Assembly (NCBI RefSeq): GCF_002847345.1
Contig: NZ_LXFV01000001.1
Coordinates: 186,001-250,000, forward strand
DNA: 64,000 nucleotides
Source: Pectobacterium peruviense
GTDB lineage: Bacteria; Pseudomonadota; Gammaproteobacteria; Enterobacterales; Enterobacteriaceae
Direction of reading: 5' to 3'
Shown: piece after piece, positions 25,402-34,079 of the stretch
How positions within the stretch are numbered: position 1 is the stretch's first letter
Layout: each line of letters begins with the position of its first letter
The notes under the pieces: generated by a model
Told to the model about the DNA's origin: nothing
The model's database searches: none
Seen by the model: the letters and a program-made list of their open reading frames with translations, nothing else
Program-made: the position numbers and the translations under genes

Positions 25402-26943
25402 CTATGCAGATGCCGCTCCGTTACGCGGCGGGCAGCGCTCTATCAGCTCAATGCTCCCATCTGCATTAGCCTGCTCCAGATAAACGTCGAAGCCCCACAG
25501 GCGGTGAACGTGTTTCAACACTTCCTGGCTGCTTTTATCCAACGGTGCGCGGTTATGTGGAACATAGCGCAGCGTTAGCGCCCGATTGCCGCGCAAATCC
25601 ACATTCCAGACCTGAATGTTTGGTTCCAGATGGCTCAGGTTGTACTGTGCGGACAGCTCCTGCCGGATCAAACGATAACCTTCTTCGTCGTGAATTGCGG
25701 CAATTTCCAGGTAGTTGTTTCGATCATCGTCCAGCACGGTGAATAGCCGGAAATCGCGCATCAATTTAGGCGATAAGAACTGGCTGATGAAGCTCTCGTC
25801 CTTAAAATTCTGCATCGCGAAATGCAGCGTATCGAGCCAATCTTTACCTGCAATATCAGGGAACCAGTAGCGATCTTCATCCGTCGGCGACTGACAAATA
25901 CGTTTAATGTCCTGAAACATCGCGAAGCCCAGCGCATACGGATTGATGCCGCTGTAATACGGACTGTTATACGGCGGCTGATAAATCACGTTGGTATGGC
26001 TGTGCAGGAATTCCAGCATGAAGCGCTCAGAGACACGGCCTTCATCATAAAGATGGTTGAGAATGGTGTAGTGCCAGAAGGTCGCCCAGCCTTCATTCAT
26101 CACCTGAGTCTGCTTCTGCGGATAGAAATACTGACTGACTTTCCGTACGATGCGCAAGACTTCTCGCTGCCAGGGTTCCAGCAACGGGGCGTTTTTCTCC
26201 ATAAAGTAGAGCAGGTTTTCCTGCGGCTCTTGTGGAAAGCGTCTCGCTTGTTCCGGTGCGGCACCCTGTTCGCGGCGCGGTAAGGTTTTCCAGAGATCGT
26301 TCACCTGACTTTGCAGGTAGGCTTCACGACTTTTCTGGCGAGATTTCTCCTCTTCGAGCGAGATTTTTTGCGGACGTTTGTAGCGGTCAACGCCGTAGTT
26401 CATGAGAGCATGACAGGAGTCAAGCAGTCGCTCTACCTCGTCCACGCCATAACGCTCTTCGCATTGTGCGATGTATTGTCGGGCAAAGAGCAGGTAATCG
26501 ACGATAGAGCTGGCATCGGTCCAACTGCGGAACAGATAATTACCCTTGAAGAATGAGTTGTGTCCGTAACAGGCGTGCGCCATGACGAGCGCCTGCATCG
26601 GCAGCGTATTCTCTTCCATCAAGTACGCAATACAGGGATCGGAGTTAATAACGATTTCGTATGCCAATCCCTGTTGCCCATGTTTGTAACGTTGTTCGGT
26701 TTCAATAAATTTCTTTCCGAACGACCAGTGGGAATAGTTAATCGGCATACCTATGCTGGAATAGGCATCCATCATTTGTTCTGAGGTGATTACTTCAATC
26801 TGGTGAGGATAGGTCGCCAGACGGTACAGCTTGGCTACTCGATCAATCTCGTCGAGATAAACCCGCAATAACTCAAATGTCCAGTCCGGTCCATCACTCA
26901 GGCGAAGTGTTTTTTTTACCTGATTATCCGTCGATATAGCCAT
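25402..26943 (-). CDS. ycgB: SpoVR-family protein YcgB
   Basis: A 513-residue conserved protein named for Bacillus SpoVR, of unknown biochemical role and stationary-phase regulated in E. coli. Highly conserved segments include SDGPDWTFELLRVYLDEIDR, QVMNEGWATFWHY, NPYALGFAMFQDIKR and LTLRYVPHNRAPL. The start is ATG 26941-26943, with AGGGGG upstream. An ATG six codons earlier is in frame but overlaps that ribosome site. SpoVR genes often lie beside yeaG-yeaH-type genes; here those are about 9 kb away on the same strand. Confidence 0.95.
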   Translation of the reverse strand: MAISTDNQVKKTLRLSDGPDWTFELLRVYLDEIDRVAKLYRLATYPHQIEVITSEQMMDAYSSIGMPINYSHWSFGKKFIETEQRYKHGQQGLAYEIVINSDPCIAYLMEENTLPMQALVMAHACYGHNSFFKGNYLFRSWTDASSIVDYLLFARQYIAQCEERYGVDEVERLLDSCHALMNYGVDRYKRPQKISLEEEKSRQKSREAYLQSQVNDLWKTLPRREQGAAPEQARRFPQEPQENLLYFMEKNAPLLEPWQREVLRIVRKVSQYFYPQKQTQVMNEGWATFWHYTILNHLYDEGRVSERFMLEFLHSHTNVIYQPPYNSPYYSGINPYALGFAMFQDIKRICQSPTDEDRYWFPDIAGKDWLDTLHFAMQNFKDESFISQFLSPKLMRDFRLFTVLDDDRNNYLEIAAIHDEEGYRLIRQELSAQYNLSHLEPNIQVWNVDLRGNRALTLRYVPHNRAPLDKSSQEVLKHVHRLWGFDVYLEQANADGSIELIERCPPRNGAASA

Positions 26944-27148
26944 CAGCGCGCCCCCTAACATAACAAGCCTGTACGTGAGATCCCGTTTACTACTTTCCCG
27001 CTAGCTCCTGTCAAAAAATCATCGTGGTTCATTTAGTTATAGCTGAGCTTTGGACACGCGGCAATTGACGAATTGACCGCATTCAATGGATAAATATCGC
27101 TGATGGGATAAAAAAGACGTGTGTTTGCGCTGTCTATCAATCGAGAAG

Positions 27149-27184: not shown

Positions 27185-28084
27185 CTAGGGGCGTTGGTAC
27201 CGTTTTAACAGTGCCTGAATATCGTTAAGGCGGGAGACGGCAACCGTGGATAGCTTCTCTTTAGAAACGTTGCGATCGAGCGAGATGCAATCCTTCCACA
27301 GAGAACGACCGGCAATCACGCCAGAAGCGCCATTTTTCAACGCGCTCTCTACCTGAGGCAGAAAGGTGGCGTGATCGACTCCTGCAGACAGAACGGCCCA
27401 GGGTATTTCACCGCAGAGTGTGGTCACGCGCGCACAGGCTTCATCCGACCCAGGATAAGGAATCTTCAAGACTTTCGCGCCTTGATCGATACAGGCTTGA
27501 CAGCCCGCCGGAATGAGTTCAGGCAGGAGGCGGGTGTAGGCGTCGCGAGATTCATTTTCCAGAGAATAGGTTAGGAACTCGACGACGAGCAGTAAATCCT
27601 CCTGCGCAAAATCCTGAATCACGGTACGGAGTGTTGCAAGGTTACGCGTATTGGCTTCTGGGATATCTGGGCGAAGGTAGATCATGATTTTTCCACCGGT
27701 GGCCCCCCATTCGCGCACTTTACGTGCCGTAACGCCCTCAACCATCGTGGAGATCCGGTAACCTTCCGGACTCGTTTCCCAGCCTGAAGCATCAAGACCG
27801 ATGAGCAGGCCGATATCGCGAGGTAAAATATCTTCATCTATCAGACCCGGTATGGCGCAGATCGGGTCGACCAATACACAGCCCGCCTCAGCTGCCAGAT
27901 AGCGAGTGATGTCATATTTTGTTTTTCCTAATGTTTCATTGGTAATCGCAGCCTGCGCATCAGAGGTCGGTGCTAATAACGTTCGCATACCGCCACGTTG
28001 ATCGCAGGCAATAACCATCATCGCGCCCGTCGCGTTACAAATTAATTGATATCCCCGGTGCTCAGCTGTTGTCATGGTGTTCAT
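27185..28084 (-). CDS. class I aldolase of the LacD/YihT family
   Basis: A 299-residue TIM-barrel aldolase related to tagatose-1,6-bisphosphate aldolase LacD and sulfofructose-phosphate aldolase YihT. Marks: ACDQRGGMR near the N-terminus, the Schiff-base lysine in KVLKIPYPGS, PWAVLSAGVD, and the phosphate-binding ASGVIAGRSLW. It probably splits a ketose (bis)phosphate to dihydroxyacetone phosphate plus an aldehyde. ATG 28082-28084 is chosen because AGGA sits eight bases upstream; an ATG five codons earlier overlaps that site. Last gene of the operon, whose upstream kinases could make its substrate. The exact sugar is unknown. Confidence 0.85.
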   Translation of the reverse strand: MNTMTTAEHRGYQLICNATGAMMVIACDQRGGMRTLLAPTSDAQAAITNETLGKTKYDITRYLAAEAGCVLVDPICAIPGLIDEDILPRDIGLLIGLDASGWETSPEGYRISTMVEGVTARKVREWGATGGKIMIYLRPDIPEANTRNLATLRTVIQDFAQEDLLLVVEFLTYSLENESRDAYTRLLPELIPAGCQACIDQGAKVLKIPYPGSDEACARVTTLCGEIPWAVLSAGVDHATFLPQVESALKNGASGVIAGRSLWKDCISLDRNVSKEKLSTVAVSRLNDIQALLKRYQRP

Positions 28085-28120
28085 GATAATTATCCTCATA
28101 AAATTAATGTAAATAAGCGA

Positions 28121-28654
28121 TTAATCCAGGTGTGTTTTGATCCATTGAATTAATTCCTGATGATTAATTTCCTTATCCTGATCAACCGTGTAACACTTCC
28201 CAATGCACATTGGTTGTGCCTGATGTGCGAGTGAAGTTAATTCCGGGAGATACTCATCACCAGGATGACCCTTTATTCTTTCATTCATTCTGGCTTGATA
28301 TCGTTCTGCCACCCGATCAGATGAGATGGCATTCCATATTTCAAGCGGGTGTTCGATATCACACGAGGTCAGATATTCCTGTAATATCGATTTTTCGCGA
28401 AAGCCGAACCAGGCATCAAGAATAAAAATACTATTATTAGGCGCTTGCCTAACGATGTTAAACATCGCCTGATACGCGGCGCATCCCAGTTTTCTATTTA
28501 ACGCTCTATCGATAATGTCGCAGAACTGCATCATGAATGGCTCTTTTATTTCATCGAGGCTTAACCGTGGGAGATGCAATTCATCAGAAATAATACGCGC
28601 TACCGTGCTTTTCCCTGATGCAGGTATGCCATTTACTAAAATGATTTTTTTCAT
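28121..28654 (-). CDS. P-loop kinase-like protein in the PTS operon
   Basis: A 177-residue P-loop NTPase with Walker A GIPASGKST (9-17) followed by DELHLPRLSLDEIKEPF and FILDAWF, a layout seen in small-molecule kinases such as the shikimate/gluconate kinase and chloramphenicol phosphotransferase groups. The substrate cannot be read from sequence. Its ATG overlaps the IIA stop by four bases (ATGA), so translation is coupled. The next gene, the aldolase, starts 36 bp after its stop. It could phosphorylate a sugar or an intermediate of the same pathway. Confidence 0.75.
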   Translation of the reverse strand: MKKIILVNGIPASGKSTVARIISDELHLPRLSLDEIKEPFMMQFCDIIDRALNRKLGCAAYQAMFNIVRQAPNNSIFILDAWFGFREKSILQEYLTSCDIEHPLEIWNAISSDRVAERYQARMNERIKGHPGDEYLPELTSLAHQAQPMCIGKCYTVDQDKEINHQELIQWIKTHLD

Positions 28655-29088
28655 AATACCCCGACAATATCATCTGACGTGGTGGCACATCGAATCCGAG
28701 AGAGCATGTCATCCTGCTCCAATAGATTGATGATGGAGGCGATGCCTTCTGTGATATGAGCATCACTGTTAATGCCACCGAACATAATTAAAATATCTAC
28801 CGGTTCACTTCCCTGAATAGAGAGTGGCGTGCGTAACGTCAATAAGCTGAAGCAATTCTCAATAACGCCACACTCAGGGCGTGCATGTGGAATAGCGATG
28901 CCTTCATCAAAAACATAATAAGGGCCGTATTCCTTCGTGCTTTCGATCACCGCAATGGGATAGTCTTCCGTAATACACCCTGCGTTGATTAATGGTTGTG
29001 CGGCACAATAAATAGCTTCTTCCCATGTTTCACATATCATGCCGAGTTGAATGCAATTGTGCTGCAAAAGGAAATTTCTTATGCTCAT
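28651..29088 (-). CDS. PTS IIA component, ascorbate/fructose-type
   Basis: A 145-residue PTS EIIA domain of the mannitol/fructose superfamily, closest in feel to UlaC. His68 in DEGIAIPHARP is the likely phosphorylation site. GAGG lies just upstream of the ATG. It accepts phosphate from HPr and passes it to the IIB at 30798-31091. Six bases separate it from the preceding small gene, and it overlaps the next kinase gene by four bases. Confidence 0.88.
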   Translation of the reverse strand: MSIRNFLLQHNCIQLGMICETWEEAIYCAAQPLINAGCITEDYPIAVIESTKEYGPYYVFDEGIAIPHARPECGVIENCFSLLTLRTPLSIQGSEPVDILIMFGGINSDAHITEGIASIINLLEQDDMLSRIRCATTSDDIVGVL

Positions 29089-29094
29089 AAAGCC

Positions 29095-29373
29095 TCATAT
29101 ATTTTTCCGAATGGTGTTTCTGAGTTCATCGATCTGAATGAAAATAGTATCAACGCGATCCCGGTAATCAGGATGGGAAGAAAATAATTGAATGGCCTGG
29201 TTGTATTTAATCATTAACGTTTTTTGTGTTTCACTATGCGTCGGATCTTGTGCTAAACGAGATTCAAGCTCCGTTAATTCCTCCTCAATTTCCCTGACGC
29301 GATTGTCATTTGTATTATCACGGTGACCGGAAGACGGGGCAGGCGATAAAAAACGTTTGAGTAGAGAAAACAT
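29095..29373 (-). CDS. 92-residue protein of unknown function in the PTS operon
   Basis: Begins MFSLLKRFLSPAPSSG, a short amphipathic or membrane-touching start, then mostly charged helix (VREIEEELTELESRLAQD) ending DELRNTIRKNI, which looks coiled coil. I do not recognise a family. The strong AAGGAG eight bases before the ATG and tight packing against IIA (6 bp) support a real gene. A gap of 73 bp separates it from IIC. A role as an accessory of the transporter is guesswork. Confidence 0.7.
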   Translation of the reverse strand: MFSLLKRFLSPAPSSGHRDNTNDNRVREIEEELTELESRLAQDPTHSETQKTLMIKYNQAIQLFSSHPDYRDRVDTIFIQIDELRNTIRKNI

Positions 29374-29446
29374 AGTGACTCCTTAGCAATTGACACAATT
29401 GACACAATGACATTAATGACGACAGGCCATACGACGTGTTTATGCG

Positions 29447-30784
29447 CTATTGCGATAGTTTACGATTCGCAATAAAGGCAATGGCTGCAACGAACGCGAC
29501 AAATGCGGCGACAAATAACCAGTCCTGCTGGAAGGCGTGTCCTAATATCAGGCCAGTACCGATGACGTCAGAATCACTGAAGGTGACGCCGGTAAATCCG
29601 AAGACTTCCAGTAATGGCACCAGAATGGCAGGCAATAAGGTAATGAAAAGACCATGAACCACACCGCCGATAATAGCGCCGCGCCGTCCTCCCATGGCGT
29701 TACCGAAAATACCCGCCGTGCCGCCCGCAAAGAAGTTGGTCAGTAAACCTGGCAAAATCATCGCCAACCCAAACATCGGGAAAATCAGCATTCCCAGAAT
29801 AGAACCGACGGTGGTGGCGAGGAAGCCAACAATCACGGCGTTGGGTGCATAAGGGAAGAGCACCGGGCAATCCAATGCGGGTTTAGCGTTAGGCACCAGG
29901 CGCATGGCGATACCTCGAAATGCGGGAACCAACTCATTAAGCAGCAGACGGACACCGCTGTAGAGAACGAAAACGCCCGCCACAAACTGCATGGACTGCA
30001 TAAACGAATACATCAGATAGTTGACGCCGTTGGCATATTGCGCGATGTATTCCGGTCCCGCTGCCACGGCAGGGATGAGGTACATCGGTACCATAACGAC
30101 GGCCATCGACAGGTAGGTATCCTGCAAGAATTTGAAGTTATCGGGCAGCGTTAAATCTTCTGTAGATTTGGAGTTTTTACCGACTAGCCGAGCGACGGCG
30201 GCCTGCACCAGATACCCGATGGTACAAAAATGCCCGAGCGCGACATCATCGGAATTCGTGATTTTACGGACAATCGGCTGTGCCAGCGCAGGCATTAGCA
30301 CGGCCATAATGCCGCCAAATATGCCTCCGGTTAGGATCAGCGTCGCGCCGGTCAAGCCCGACTTATAGCCGATCACGGTACCGATTGTTGCCATCCACAG
30401 CAGAGCCTGTCCCGTCAGGAAGATATATTTAAAGGGGGTAATTCGTGCAATCAGGATGTTGACGGCAAAGATCACCATCAGCGTTAACGCGACTTCTGAG
30501 CCGAGTTCGCGGTTTGCCAATCCGGCGATGGCGGCGACATCGGTGATGTAGCCCTTCATACCGAAACCGTGGGTAAAGATACTGTTCAAATACGTCAGGG
30601 CATCGACGATGATGTTAATCCCCGCCATCATGATGAGGAACCCAAGCAGTGTCTTGAATGTCCCCTCTGCAATTTTCCCTACCGACTTCTTCTGTAAAAT
30701 CAACCCGATCATGGCGATCAGCGCGATTAATATGGATGCCTGGCCTAATAAATCTTTCACAATGAAATTGATAACGGTGTTCAT
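29447..30784 (-). CDS. PTS IIC permease of the ascorbate (UlaA/SgaT) family
   Basis: A 445-residue polytopic membrane permease. Signature segments match UlaA: MAGINIIVDALTYLNSIF, LTGGIFGGIMAVLMPALAQP, FAGGTAGIFGNAMGGRRGA and GLILGHAFQQDW. GAGGTG precedes the ATG. The family includes L-ascorbate transporters, but no UlaG lactonase, UlaD decarboxylase or UlaE/UlaF epimerase genes are present, and a phosphofructokinase-like and an aldolase gene are, so the substrate is probably another sugar. Forms the transporter with IIB and IIA of the operon. Confidence 0.9.
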   Translation of the reverse strand: MNTVINFIVKDLLGQASILIALIAMIGLILQKKSVGKIAEGTFKTLLGFLIMMAGINIIVDALTYLNSIFTHGFGMKGYITDVAAIAGLANRELGSEVALTLMVIFAVNILIARITPFKYIFLTGQALLWMATIGTVIGYKSGLTGATLILTGGIFGGIMAVLMPALAQPIVRKITNSDDVALGHFCTIGYLVQAAVARLVGKNSKSTEDLTLPDNFKFLQDTYLSMAVVMVPMYLIPAVAAGPEYIAQYANGVNYLMYSFMQSMQFVAGVFVLYSGVRLLLNELVPAFRGIAMRLVPNAKPALDCPVLFPYAPNAVIVGFLATTVGSILGMLIFPMFGLAMILPGLLTNFFAGGTAGIFGNAMGGRRGAIIGGVVHGLFITLLPAILVPLLEVFGFTGVTFSDSDVIGTGLILGHAFQQDWLFVAAFVAFVAAIAFIANRKLSQ

Positions 30785-30797
30785 TTTTCACCTCATG

Positions 30798-31091
30798 CTA
30801 TTTATGAGCCTGGATATACGCTAAAATTTTTTCTTCTATTTCATCTTTGTCGGTAAGTTTATTAAGAATGATGACCCTTTTTTTCTCATCTTCACTGGCA
30901 TCGCTATTCAGAATGTCAGCAAATATTTTCTGGGTTAGGATGACGTCATAATTGAAGGCAGAGGCTTCTGAAATCGTGGTGTGATTGATTTCCGCATCAA
31001 TGCCCAGCTTTTTTAGTACGGATATCGCACTCATTTCGATAGCGAAACTGGAGCCTAATCCACAGCCGCAAACGCAAAGTACTTTCAACAT
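30798..31091 (-). CDS. PTS IIB component, ascorbate/galactitol-type
   Basis: A 97-residue PTS EIIB with the P-loop CGCGLGSSF; Cys8 is the likely phosphocysteine. ATG 31089-31091 (GAGG nine bases upstream) gives the canonical short N-terminus MLKVLCVC. The frame is open further up, but only into the kinase gene. Ten bases from the phosphofructokinase-like gene and 13 from IIC, so clearly cotranscribed. Confidence 0.88.
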   Translation of the reverse strand: MLKVLCVCGCGLGSSFAIEMSAISVLKKLGIDAEINHTTISEASAFNYDVILTQKIFADILNSDASEDEKKRVIILNKLTDKDEIEEKILAYIQAHK

Positions 31092-31101
31092 AATAATGGC
31101 C

Positions 31102-32082
31102 TCATATAAGATGATGAGTTTTCGCGAGCTTATAAAAGTGACTTTCGACATCAACCAAGCGTCGTTCAGAATCTTCCAGATCGATAGGGATCGCTTTGTT
31201 GTTATTATTGATAATGATAATTTTATTAGTCAGCCCAGCGTTAATGCACCGAACCATTTCTTCTGCTAACAGAGTGCCCTGAATAATTTCTTCCCCAGTG
31301 GGCGCGCCATTTCGTAAGCCGTATCCTAAAATAGTTTTTCGGATACGGATTCCAACCTTATGTTCGAGTTTCTTGATAATAGTATCGATAGCGCCCTGAA
31401 AACCGGGAGTGTATTCATGGGTGTAGCCTTCAGAGCATAAAATGATCACGCTATTTTGTTCTGCGATTTTATCCCGAATACATTGTGCTAACGCATCAAT
31501 ATCCCACGGTGATTCTGGAATGAGTGCGATATCAGCATTACTCTTTAATGCCGCCTGTAGTGTTAATTCACCACAATAGCCACCGAGTAATTCAATCATG
31601 AATACCCGACCTTGTAATCCACGGCCCGTATTACGCAATTTCTCTACTTCACTCATTACTTGTTCGCAGGCGGTGGAGAAACCAATCGTATAGCTATTTC
31701 CTGAGATATCATTATCAATCGTCATTCCTACGCCGTAGCAATGAATACCGTAGTGGCTTAATTTTTTTAGAAATTGAAATGATCCATCTCCTCCCGCCAT
31801 AATGAGTGCGTCGAGTTTTTGTTTTTGGATGTTTTTAACAATTTTCTCGTAGTCTGTTTTTCTACACTTTCCGGTTTTTCTCCCTGATGTAATCAAGGGC
31901 ATTGATGCGAGTGAATAATCCACCAGATCGCGGCGAGTGAGGGCTTTACAGCAGTTATCGATAAGGCCATTAATTCCACCATCGAAAATGACGATGTCAG
32001 AGGCAGTCATTCTATTCACCTGAAAGATGAAGTTATTTATTCCGCTAACGTCGCCGCCGCTAATGACTAATCCAATTTTCAT
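31102..32082 (-). CDS. divergent phosphofructokinase-family sugar-phosphate kinase
   Basis: A 326-residue PfkA-superfamily kinase and first gene of the operon. Kept: GGDVSG (9-14), ATP-type GGDGS (97-101), the catalytic TIDND (121-125), and Arg in the RKTILG strand. Changed: the MGR loop that contacts fructose 6-phosphate reads LGG (166-168), and the GHxQRGG loop reads GYGLRNG (253-259). It therefore probably phosphorylates a different sugar phosphate. GAGGG precedes the ATG. With the PTS and the LacD-type aldolase it forms a logical import, second phosphorylation and cleavage series. Confidence 0.86.
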   Translation of the reverse strand: MKIGLVISGGDVSGINNFIFQVNRMTASDIVIFDGGINGLIDNCCKALTRRDLVDYSLASMPLITSGRKTGKCRKTDYEKIVKNIQKQKLDALIMAGGDGSFQFLKKLSHYGIHCYGVGMTIDNDISGNSYTIGFSTACEQVMSEVEKLRNTGRGLQGRVFMIELLGGYCGELTLQAALKSNADIALIPESPWDIDALAQCIRDKIAEQNSVIILCSEGYTHEYTPGFQGAIDTIIKKLEHKVGIRIRKTILGYGLRNGAPTGEEIIQGTLLAEEMVRCINAGLTNKIIIINNNNKAIPIDLEDSERRLVDVESHFYKLAKTHHLI

Positions 32083-32223
32083 CGTCGCCCTCTAAAAATA
32101 TGAATAACCATCGTGTGAACACAATGTTATTAAATTGATGAAGTGTTTTTTTGATGAATGTCGCAAATTTGTATTTAACTATGCTGAGACTTGGCTTGAC
32201 AGTGATGTCGCTGGTTCTATTGC

Positions 32224-32239
32224 TGTGATGGTTATCACG
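32224..32239. promoter_or_regulatory. CRP-like site, PTS operon promoter
   Basis: TGTGATGGTTATCACG matches the CRP consensus TGTGA-N6-TCACA in nine of ten conserved bases, 142 bp upstream of the first gene of the operon. Fits a catabolite-controlled sugar operon. Confidence 0.65.
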
Positions 32240-32345: not shown

Positions 32346-32361
32346 TGTGAATGATTTCACA
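32346..32361. promoter_or_regulatory. perfect CRP-type site
   Basis: TGTGAATGATTTCACA matches TGTGA-N6-TCACA at all ten positions. It is 264 bp upstream of the PTS operon and 465 bp from dadA, with the ERIC element on the dadA side, so the PTS operon is the likelier target. Confidence 0.7.
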
Positions 32362-32404: not shown

Positions 32405-32673
32405 TATACCCTAAATAATTCGAGTTTCAGGACAAAACGTTAGCGTTTTGAACAGCGCTTGCGCTGGCCCCGAAGGGGGTGAAGCCATAAGGCTGAATAA
32501 CGCGGCAAGGGAAGAAATCCCGATGAGATTACTCAGGTAAGTGATTCGGGTGAGTGACAAACCTGCCAAAGGCAGGTTTGAACGCTGCTTGCAGCGGCTC
32601 CCACGGAGCGAGACACACGTGTGTGTCGAGTAACGCAGCCAACGCACATGTAACTTGAAGTATGACGGGTATA
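32405..32673. repeat. ERIC element, 269-bp variant with two insertions
   Basis: Ends TATACCCTAAATAATTCGAG and the right tip ACTTGAAGTATGACGGGTAT mark an enterobacterial repetitive intergenic consensus element (usually about 127 bp). Two insertions enlarge it: 32431-32500 (70 bp) and 32556-32633 (78 bp). Removing them leaves 121 bp. Each insertion starts GACAAA, passes through TTTGAAC, and ends GAATAA or GAGTAA. Each can fold into four successive hairpins at matching positions but with different stem sequences. Confidence 0.88.
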
Positions 32674-32825: not shown

Positions 32826-34079
32826 ATGCGGGTTGTAATTCTGGGAAGTGGCGTAGTTGGTGTAAGTACCGCCTGGTATCTTGCGCAGGAAGGGCATGAT
32901 GTTACCGTTATCGACAGGCAGCCGGAGCCTGCGTTAGAAACCAGCGCCGGGAATGCCGGACAGATTTCCCCCGGCTATGCCGCACCGTGGGCTGCACCGG
33001 GAATACCGCTAAAAGCGATAAAATGGATGTTTCAGCGCCATGCGCCGCTGGCCATTCGGCCAGACTTCACGGCCACACAGCTTTGCTGGATGTGGCAAAT
33101 GTTGCTCAATTGCGATGCCCGCCACTATAAAACTAATAAAGCACGAATGGTGCGTCTGGCTGAATACAGCCGTGATTGCCTACAGCAGCTGCGGCGAGAT
33201 ACAGATATCCAGTACGAAGGTCGACAAGGTGGAACGCTGCAACTGTTCCGCACCGAACAGCAATATGACAATGCGACACGAGATATCGCTGTACTCGAAG
33301 AGGCTGGGGTACCGTATCAATTGTTGGCTCGCCATGAGCTTGTCTCCGTCGAACCCGCATTGGCGAATGTAGTCGGGAAGCTAACCGGCGGACTGCGTTT
33401 GCCGCATGATGAGACGGGCGATTGCCAACTGTTCACCCGCCAATTGGCGGCGATGGCTGCTGATGCTGGCGTCACCTTTAAACTGGGGCGTAACGTCCGT
33501 CAACTACGGGTCGAAGGGCAGAACGTCACAGGTGTGCAGTGCGACGACGGTATGATCGTGGCAGATGCCTATGTGATGGCTTGCGGTTCCTATTCAACAG
33601 GGCTATTGCGGCAGTGGTTCGATATTCCGGTTTATCCGCTGAAAGGCTATTCACTGACGATTCCTCTGGCGGATGACGCCTCAGCACCGGCGTCTACCGT
33701 GTTGGATGAAACGTATAAAGTGGCGATTACGCGTTTTGACAATCGCATTCGCGTTGGTGGCATGGCAGAAGTGGTGGGCTTCAACACCGATCTGAATCCC
33801 AAGCGTCGAGAAACGTTGGAAATGGTGGTGCGCGATCTGTATCCCCATTGTGGGCCGATTGAGCAAGCGACATTCTGGACAGGACTGCGTCCGATGACGC
33901 CAGACGGCACGCCGCTGGTGGGGCGCTCACCGCTGAAAAACCTGTATCTGAATACCGGTCACGGCACATTAGGTTGGACGATGGCCTGCGGGTCGGGGAA
34001 ATTGCTGGCGGATATTCTGTCGGATAAATCACCGGAGATTGAAGCCGATGATTTATCCGTGTCTCGCTATACTCGTTAG
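32826..34079 (+). CDS. dadA: D-amino acid dehydrogenase
   Basis: FAD-dependent membrane-associated dehydrogenase oxidising D-alanine and other D-amino acids to 2-oxo acids. 417 residues (E. coli 432). N-terminal FAD loop [19 protein letters not shown], then [21 protein letters not shown], and C-terminal [14 protein letters not shown]. In E. coli dadX (alanine racemase) follows in an operon; here a convergent exporter gene follows, so DadA must rely on a racemase encoded elsewhere. The slightly shorter C-terminus looks natural, not truncated. Confidence 0.95.

Follow-up and report, generated by a model that had tools for sequence, protein, structure and literature searches.

The seven-gene operon and its relatives

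Within a 64,000-nucleotide stretch of DNA from the soft-rot bacterium Pectobacterium peruviense (hereafter the window), we analyzed a block of seven adjacent minus-strand open reading frames (ORFs). In the window's ORF list, the block runs from 32082 to 27185 and encodes, in order of transcription, a phosphofructokinase (PFK)-like kinase, the IIB and IIC components of a phosphotransferase system (PTS), a 92-residue protein, the IIA component, a small P-loop kinase, and a class I aldolase (Table 1). The genes are separated by gaps of 10, 13, 73, and 6 bp, then by a 4-bp ATGA overlap and a gap of 21 bp; for IIB, a longer alternative TTG start is listed at 31154. These coordinates agree with the gene set, order, gaps, and overlap given in an initial annotation of this DNA, and the protein families named there were borne out by scans against Pfam and NCBIfam models, in which five of the seven genes exceeded a Pfam cut-off. 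The statement that no catabolic gene of the ascorbate (ula) system is present also holds for the seven operon proteins, which were the scope of the search. An Rfam scan near the operon gave no known RNA element at gathering scores.

Table 1. Genes and upstream features of the operon and its flanks (window coordinates; scores are given with the model's cut-off)
Feature	Position	Strand	Remarks
PFK-family (PfkA-like) kinase, first gene	31102..32082	-	326 aa; PF00365, 210 bits (cut-off 30.9)
PTS IIB	30798..31091	-	97 aa; PF02302, 44 bits (cut-off 23.6); VCGCGLGSS loop
PTS IIC, UlaA / EIIC-GAT family	29447..30784	-	445 aa; PF03611, 409 bits (cut-off 24.2)
92-residue helical protein, possible PTS accessory	29095..29373	-	92 aa; no family over cut-off
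PTS IIA	28651..29088	-	145 aa; PF00359, 92 bits (cut-off 27); IAIPHARPE motif
P-loop kinase	28121..28654	-	177 aa; fused to ROK kinase in layout D
DeoC/LacD-family class I aldolase	27185..28084 (ORF to 28099)	-	PF01791, 55.4 bits (cut-off 23.8); start probable
ycgB (name as in the initial annotation)	25402-26961	-	flanks operon
dadA (name as in the initial annotation)	32826-34079	+	flanks operon
CRP-like palindrome TGTGAN6TCACA, perfect	32346..32361		279 bp before PFK start
Second CRP-like site, one mismatch	32224..32239		157 bp before PFK start
Third CRP-like site, two mismatches	32150..32165		83 bp before PFK start
Candidate -10 box TAACAT	32124..32129	-	read from sequence and alignment; not among promoter-scan matches

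Relatives were collected with several probes. The PFK search (E value of 1e-40 or better) in 198 genomes of the family found the gene in 30, as 28 copies of the type described below for layouts A and B, a partial remnant in G104, and a divergent copy in G141. GTDB contigs were scanned as well and yielded 23 loci, of which 21 carried the operon PFK, from Pectobacterium, Samsonia, Lonsdalea, Erwinia, Winslowiella, Raoultella/Klebsiella, Cedecea, Izhakiella, and two metagenome-assembled genomes. A profile of the small kinase (E value of 1e-10) matched 12 of 295 genomes of the order and 11 of 398 genomes of the phylum. A profile of the aldolase (E value of 1e-70) matched 20 of the 198 family genomes and, among 289 genomes of the class of G521, G521 itself and no other; layout D (see below) is therefore rare among alphaproteobacteria. 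The neighborhoods of the matches were tabulated with tblastn, and this search for the proteins as a set yielded 56 complete operons in four layouts, the nearest named relatives being those of Pectobacterium species. Left out of the 56 were a contig ending in IIC (L043), a decayed remnant (L072), and two loci with only a general PFK (L053 and L054); L074 was included although its PFK has an internal TAA, and L149 to L154 are reported separately. A megablast of the operon and of a layout-C operon against the E. coli collection gave no match, in a mode that needs about 85% identity and that distant copies could escape.

Layout A, that of the window, comprises 22 operons with the order PFK-IIB-IIC-92-residue protein-IIA-kinase-class I aldolase; 12 of them, none from Pectobacterium or Samsonia, have a HAD phosphatase gene added downstream. 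Layout B, also with 22 operons, has the order PFK-IIB-IIC-class II aldolase-92-residue protein-IIA-kinase. Layout C (9 operons) is headed by a divergent SorC-type regulator and runs class I aldolase-kinase-IIA-IIB-IIC-101-residue protein, without PFK in eight cases and with a divergent PFK in one (L073). Layout D, from alphaproteobacteria, is represented by 3 of the 56 operons and by 4 more from Rhizobiaceae plasmids outside that count, and contains a SorC-type regulator, a class I aldolase, a ROK sugar kinase fused to the P-loop kinase, and a sugar ATP-binding cassette (ABC) transporter; neither PTS nor PFK was seen in these operons. The same ribose-type binding protein occurs in six of the seven layout-D loci, and the other, L149, has a UgpC-type transporter nearby instead.

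The gene set is neither local nor due to chance and is more general than could be known from the initial annotation. A chance grouping is excluded because the same seven genes stand in the same order in 22 layout-A operons, and related operons in Sodalis, Lonsdalea, Erwinia, and Klebsiella/Raoultella, among others, and PTS-free ones on Rhizobium and Agrobacterium plasmids show that the block is no local peculiarity of Pectobacterium. Among the 56 operons, the P-loop kinase and an aldolase of either class are present in all, and PFK in 45. That the loci came from different probes bears on possible bias. All 38 complete A and B operons obtained through PFK searches carry the kinase, the 10 new loci found through the kinase have an aldolase in 10 cases and PFK in 5, and the 6 new loci found through the aldolase have the kinase in all 6 and PFK in none. 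The kinase and the aldolase are the fixed core; uptake is exchangeable, and PFK is optional. We did not find a description of an operon with the same gene set among the matches listed from the open-access literature.

Several loci showed further peculiarities. L072 (in G104) is a decaying remnant of a layout-A operon. At L149:6034-7473 and L152:6351-7856, both on Rhizobiaceae plasmids, a HAD phosphatase gene and a pyridoxine 5'-phosphate synthase-like gene adjoin the SorC-type regulator, and the HAD protein of L149 has 43% identity to that of layout A. L154 (CP125156.1), a 5.4-Mb record labeled as a Klebsiella pneumoniae plasmid, is chromosome-sized and carries a layout-B-like operon, in which PFK was matched in two pieces and is absent from the gene table, with no annotated gene in the gap expected for the aldolase.

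Kinases, aldolase, and PTS components

The P-loop kinase reaches no Pfam cut-off (AAA_33, 26.3 against 27 bits), and an alignment of 21 rows has 42 invariant columns. Its AlphaFold model (predicted local distance difference test [pLDDT], 89) matches best the fold of 2rhm (Z score, 20.7; root mean square deviation, 2.2; 169 aligned residues), an entry whose annotation says no more than putative kinase; next come phosphoseryl-tRNA, adenylate, and gluconate kinases, with Z scores of 13 to 16. These matches of the predicted structure fit a small-molecule kinase and name no substrate. In all seven layout-D loci (L096, L097, L098, and L149 to L152), the P-loop kinase forms the C-terminal part of a ROK sugar kinase, and this fusion adjoins the aldolase, with no PFK gene in those loci. 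Because an ABC transporter and a ROK kinase can stand in for the PTS, import and the first phosphorylation seem to belong together as one module; the second phosphorylation would then most naturally fall to the P-loop kinase, given its fusion to the ROK kinase. PFK appears dispensable for this step: one layout-D genome (G760) has no PFK-family match at an E value of 1e-10, and the single match in each of two others (G521 and G722) is distant and lies on a different contig.

The PFK-like protein misses the cut-off of the NCBIfam PFKA_ATP equivalog (168.6 against 371.35 bits). In the phylogenetic tree, the copies of layouts A and B group in a fully supported clade on a very long stem (4.27 changes per column) and are separate from housekeeping PfkA, a copy of which the same genome also carries (L002), with the canonical residues at M169, R171, and H249. 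The pocket, catalytic, and allosteric residues of PfkA have known roles, and we checked them in 14 chosen A and B rows of the 44 copies, using E. coli PfkA numbering. The ATP-type GGDGS motif and the TIDND motif are kept, as are R72, D103, D127, D129, R162, E222, R243, and R252 in all 14 rows. The sugar pocket is changed in all 14 (M169L, R171G, and H249Y), and the allosteric site for phosphoenolpyruvate (PEP) and ADP is altered as well (R21 to F or Y, E187D, K213Q, and replacement of K211). This pattern suggests that the PFK of layouts A and B was re-tuned to another ketose phosphate and freed from glycolytic control. The gene stands first in all 44 A and B operons, and it is absent from eight of nine layout-C and all three layout-D operons. 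In the single layout-C copy (L073:9988-10980), GGDG has become GGGG, and the same His to Tyr change is present; its position in the tree is unsure (support 85/64, long branch). An internal TAA interrupts the PFK of one layout-A operon, L074 (G113).

A role in 2,6-bisphosphate signaling was also considered, given a kinase fold near that of 6-phosphofructo-2-kinase and a GGYCG motif shared with the C-terminal half of muscle PFK. It was dropped, as the kinase persists in operons of layouts C and D that lack PFK and as its fold is widespread.

For the aldolase, the aligned relatives begin at the second Met (MNxMTTAE) of the window's ORF, so the start is probably at 28084, giving 299 residues, rather than at 28099, giving 304. 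The protein has 61 to 97% identity to 13 gamma- and alphaproteobacterial relatives, and D33, K137, E174, and K212 are invariant in the 14 aligned rows. K137 and E174 align with the Lys and Glu of tagatose-bisphosphate aldolases, the catalytic residues of LacD being named as Lys126 and Glu164 in a passage of PMC9007349. In record annotation, the aldolase goes under the name tagatose-bisphosphate aldolase. A class I aldolase is encoded in 34 of the 56 operons and a class II enzyme instead in the other 22, none having neither; all 22 are of layout B, where a class II ketose-bisphosphate aldolase takes the place of the class I gene (the enzyme of L063 scores 261 bits against a cut-off of 216 with the ketose-bisphosphate aldolase model TIGR00167). 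That a class II ketose-bisphosphate aldolase, unrelated to the class I enzyme, takes its place in the same operon is good evidence for aldol cleavage of a ketose bisphosphate as the decisive step. The scheme of the initial annotation, leading from sugar through sugar phosphate and bisphosphate to two trioses, thus keeps its aldol route through a bisphosphate; its casting of PFK as the central, fixed kinase is probably wrong, with PFK missing from most operons of layouts C and D and the small P-loop kinase universal.

Each of the 53 operons of layouts A, B, and C encodes IIB; the cysteine loop of this component and the histidine motif of IIA (Table 1) presumably have the usual roles. IIC passes NF009551 (826 bits against a cut-off of 657) and also the NCBIfam ascorbate IIC model NF006919 (483 against 380 bits). 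IIA scores 104 bits with PRK10372, below the cut-off of 187, and both IIA and IIB stay under the ascorbate-model cut-offs. The 92-residue protein, without a family over cut-off in the profile scans, is modeled as a three-helix bundle (mean pLDDT, 82.8), and a fold search with this model found nothing at an E value below 0.5; weak TPR matches appear in 1 of 18 aligned members of its family. It is encoded in all 44 A and B operons, and a 101-residue protein in all 9 of layout C, neither being seen in layout D. An hhalign comparison of the 92- and 101-residue proteins (probability of 6.9%, E value of 0.0053) did not support homology. Near one layout-B operon, a second IIC/IIB/IIA cluster (46, 28, and 32% identity) lies at L094:16919-18867.

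Upstream region and genomic position

The upstream regions of 23 layout-A and 22 layout-B loci were scanned for TGTGAN6TCACA with up to two mismatches, retaining the three best sites per locus. In layout A, a perfect CRP-like site lies at -278 to -295 in 23 of 23 loci, a second (at most two mismatches) at -151 to -159 in 23 of 23, and a third at -77 to -85 in 21 of 23, among the best three matches listed. All 22 layout-B loci have a site at -142 to -152 (12 perfect, 8 with one mismatch, and 2 with two). The spacing between the second and third sites is 74 bp in every locus with both listed (21 of 23 loci in A and at least 11 of 22 in B), and CRP-like sites stand at conserved positions in all 45 loci scanned. 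As a background, of 3000 random 500-bp stretches of the window, 1.2% contained a perfect site, and 15% contained one when up to two mismatches were allowed. The operon may be activated by CRP; with the candidate TAACAT box, the center of the third site would fall about 41 bp before the putative transcription start, as in a class II arrangement. Between the second and third CRP-like sites, the consensus of both layouts also contains TTGACA on the plus strand (window 32196-32201; TGTCAA on the other strand), which may serve as a specific operator or belong to a divergent promoter.

Within the genus, PFK is present in 17 of 25 genomes (E value of 1e-100 or better). In five of the eight genomes without it, the ycgB homologue directly adjoins dadA with an intergenic region of about 330 bp, which matches mainly the outer flanks of the window's block, on the left up to about 26975 and on the right from about 32671; three of these five regions also match a stretch of 18 to 24 bp near 32410. 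The remaining three (L148, L142, and L145) have other genes beside dadA in the stretch covered. Other genera carry the operon at other places, and Sodalis carries it on plasmid pHS1. The block is a mobile catabolic module. By eye, an integrase-like gene was seen among the genes beside dadA in L145. The dadA of Pectobacterium sp. strain PL152 (L036:6266-7515) matches in two frames, suggesting a frameshift.

Proposed pathway and its alternatives

Taken together, these findings make it probable that the operon is activated by CRP and serves the catabolism of a ketohexose, most likely D-tagatose, which would be degraded via a sugar phosphate and a bisphosphate to two triose phosphates. We infer the reactions, the order of the kinases, the binding of CRP, and the sugar alike. 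The UlaA-family PTS (IIA, IIB, and IIC) would deliver the sugar to the cell in monophosphorylated form; addition of the second phosphate, by the P-loop kinase or the PFK-like kinase or by the two together, would give a ketose 1,6-bisphosphate; and cleavage of this by the LacD-type aldolase would supply glycolysis with dihydroxyacetone phosphate and glyceraldehyde 3-phosphate. Among alphaproteobacteria, the role of the PTS would fall to an ABC transporter together with a ROK kinase.

As to the sugar, a ketose rather than an aldose is indicated because no layout includes an isomerase gene in its shared set; two layout-D loci, L151 and L152, do have a sugar-phosphate isomerase/epimerase gene, in an adjacent cluster. 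The layout-D binding protein matches Protein Data Bank (PDB) entry 5dkv with 566 bits over 303 residues, the next best match scoring 129 bits. Entry 5dkv is reported to be an Agrobacterium vitis binding protein with alpha-D-tagatopyranose. The gene of this binding protein was found in 23 plasmid records, each of which also has the aldolase gene (25 records in total) at a distance of 1.3 to 1.7 kb. Together with the name given to the aldolase in record annotation, this makes D-tagatose the probable substrate, with a sister ketohexose as the possible alternative. The open-access literature refers to E. coli evolved on tagatose through the fructose PTS (PMC10101011), to a Rhizobium rhododendri cluster annotated for psicose, tagatose, and ribulose (PMC10064268), to a tagatose operon of S. 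meliloti (PMC10433430), and to an A. vitis binding protein with allitol (PMC10318746); "5DKV" was not mentioned among the open-access literature matches listed. Neighboring genes noted by eye (a pyrroloquinoline quinone-linked dehydrogenase, an FSA-type transaldolase, DeoR, LysR, and mal genes) were inconsistent between loci and were not used as substrate clues.

Several observations weigh against this pathway, its substrate, or its regulation. The aldolase falls below the curated cut-offs of every tagatose-bisphosphate aldolase model listed, PRK12858 being the best (148.6 against 184) and the lacD equivalog TIGR01232 giving 52.5 against 432 bits. The molecule name of 5dkv is "ABC transporter substrate binding protein (Ribose)." Known D-tagatose PTSs belong to the fructose family and not to the UlaA family. 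The IIC proteins of layouts A and C share about 71% identity and layout D has no PTS, so that the substrate could differ between layouts. In layouts A and B, two enzymes are candidates for the second kinase, where a single pathway should require just one. Concerning regulation, the scan of the operon for sigma-70 promoters and terminators was no better than with shuffled sequences, which is why the upstream-region alignment was used instead. A dedicated regulator was not found for layouts A and B. Within 300 bp upstream of the aldolase in 12 layout-C and -D loci, there was no CRP-like site with fewer than two mismatches, and the two-mismatch matches in five of them include four instances of the same one at -30; these layouts carry the SorC-type regulator instead.

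The principal alternatives concern the second kinase. The initial annotation's scheme makes the PFK-like enzyme the C1 kinase and would place the P-loop kinase elsewhere, for example acting on an aldehyde product or rescuing free sugar. The catalytic and ATP residues kept in the 14 rows examined speak for it, as does the presence of PFK in all 22 operons with a class II aldolase (17 found through PFK and 5 through the kinase), and housekeeping PfkA, found in the layout-C genomes G024 and G035, could serve layout C. However, PFK is absent from most layout-C and all layout-D operons, one layout-D genome has no PFK-family match at all at the threshold used, the small kinase occurs in every operon and, in layout D, is fused to a sugar kinase, and the pocket carries three substitutions, so that we regard this arrangement as rather unlikely. 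That the PFK-like protein is a regulatory or drifting paralogue and no catalyst of the pathway would suit its very long branch, the lost GGDG aspartate of the L073 copy, and the internal TAA of L074; the intact ATP and catalytic residues in the A and B copies examined and the constant first place of the gene make this quite improbable. The P-loop kinase could instead be a dihydroxyacetone or triose kinase, which would explain why PFK is optional, yet none of the 22 operons with a class II aldolase, which by family uses bisphosphates, lacks this kinase, and the ROK fusion speaks against it as well; this reading is disfavored. Returning to the P-loop kinase as the second kinase, we propose, as a tentative possibility, that it represents a new sugar-phosphate kinase family that adds the second phosphate, either alone after the PTS or within a bifunctional ROK::P-loop kinase after the ABC transporter. 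With the aldolase, it may form a portable D-tagatose core that takes different importers, two unrelated aldolases, and an optional re-tuned PFK, and the 92-residue protein may be a new PTS accessory subunit.

The same pathway might also serve another ketohexose, namely L-sorbose, D-psicose, or D-fructose. The tagatose call depends on the ligand of 5dkv, LacD-type aldolases are loose on stereochemistry, and an epimerase gene of the ribulose-phosphate/allulose-phosphate superfamily lies in a nearby cluster in two of the four annotated Rhizobiaceae loci (L151, whose gene was family scanned, and L152). The layout-D binding protein is nevertheless far nearer to 5dkv than to ribose- or allose-binding proteins (566 against less than 130 bits), and we judge these other sugars unlikely, though worth keeping in mind. 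An ascorbate system of the ula type appears very improbable: IIC does pass an ascorbate model, but its score with the other IIC model is much higher, neither IIA nor IIB reaches the ascorbate cut-offs, and the window's operon has an aldolase and kinases instead of a lactonase or decarboxylase gene.

Known systems resemble the D-tagatose pathway proposed here in part. In the tagatose 6-phosphate pathway of Gram-positive bacteria (LacC/LacD), the sugar 6-phosphate is converted to the 1,6-bisphosphate and then to two triose phosphates. The proposed bisphosphate route and a LacD-superfamily class I aldolase with matching Lys and Glu are common to both; LacC, however, is of the PfkB type, whereas here a P-loop kinase and a PfkA-type enzyme are found, the aldolase lies outside the lacD equivalog, and the PTS is of the UlaA family. 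The enterobacterial tag/gat and kba/aga clusters use the class II aldolase GatY/KbaY, and layout B shares with them an aldolase of the GatY/KbaY/FbaA superfamily, PTS import, and bisphosphate cleavage; unlike them, the shared genes here include, by the families seen, no dehydrogenase, isomerase, or GatZ-type subunit, and the PTS family is another. With the ascorbate PTS UlaABC, the operon has the IIC, IIB, and IIA families in common, and it differs in the lack of a ula lactonase, decarboxylase, or epimerase among the seven genes searched and in IIA and IIB scores below the cut-offs. With 6-phosphofructokinase PfkA, the first enzyme shares the fold family and the ATP and catalytic motifs and differs in its sugar pocket and allosteric site. 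The sulfofructose-phosphate aldolase YihT is likewise a LacD-superfamily class I aldolase (7ag7 and 1to3, E values of about 7e-14 to 8e-14), but no sulfosugar genes occur among the seven.

The case warns against taking a PFK homologue as the defining enzyme of such an operon: the Sodalis record names it 6-phosphofructokinase despite the changed pocket. D-Tagatose is a commercial sweetener, and a UlaA-type tagatose PTS with a new kinase would interest enzyme engineers as well as gut and plant microbiologists. Overall, a catabolic operon scattered over Enterobacterales, with relatives on megaplasmids of Rhizobiaceae that live with plants, would gain a substrate and a testable pathway, and it would be a clear case of a pathway core that stays fixed while importer, aldolase class, and regulator are exchanged.

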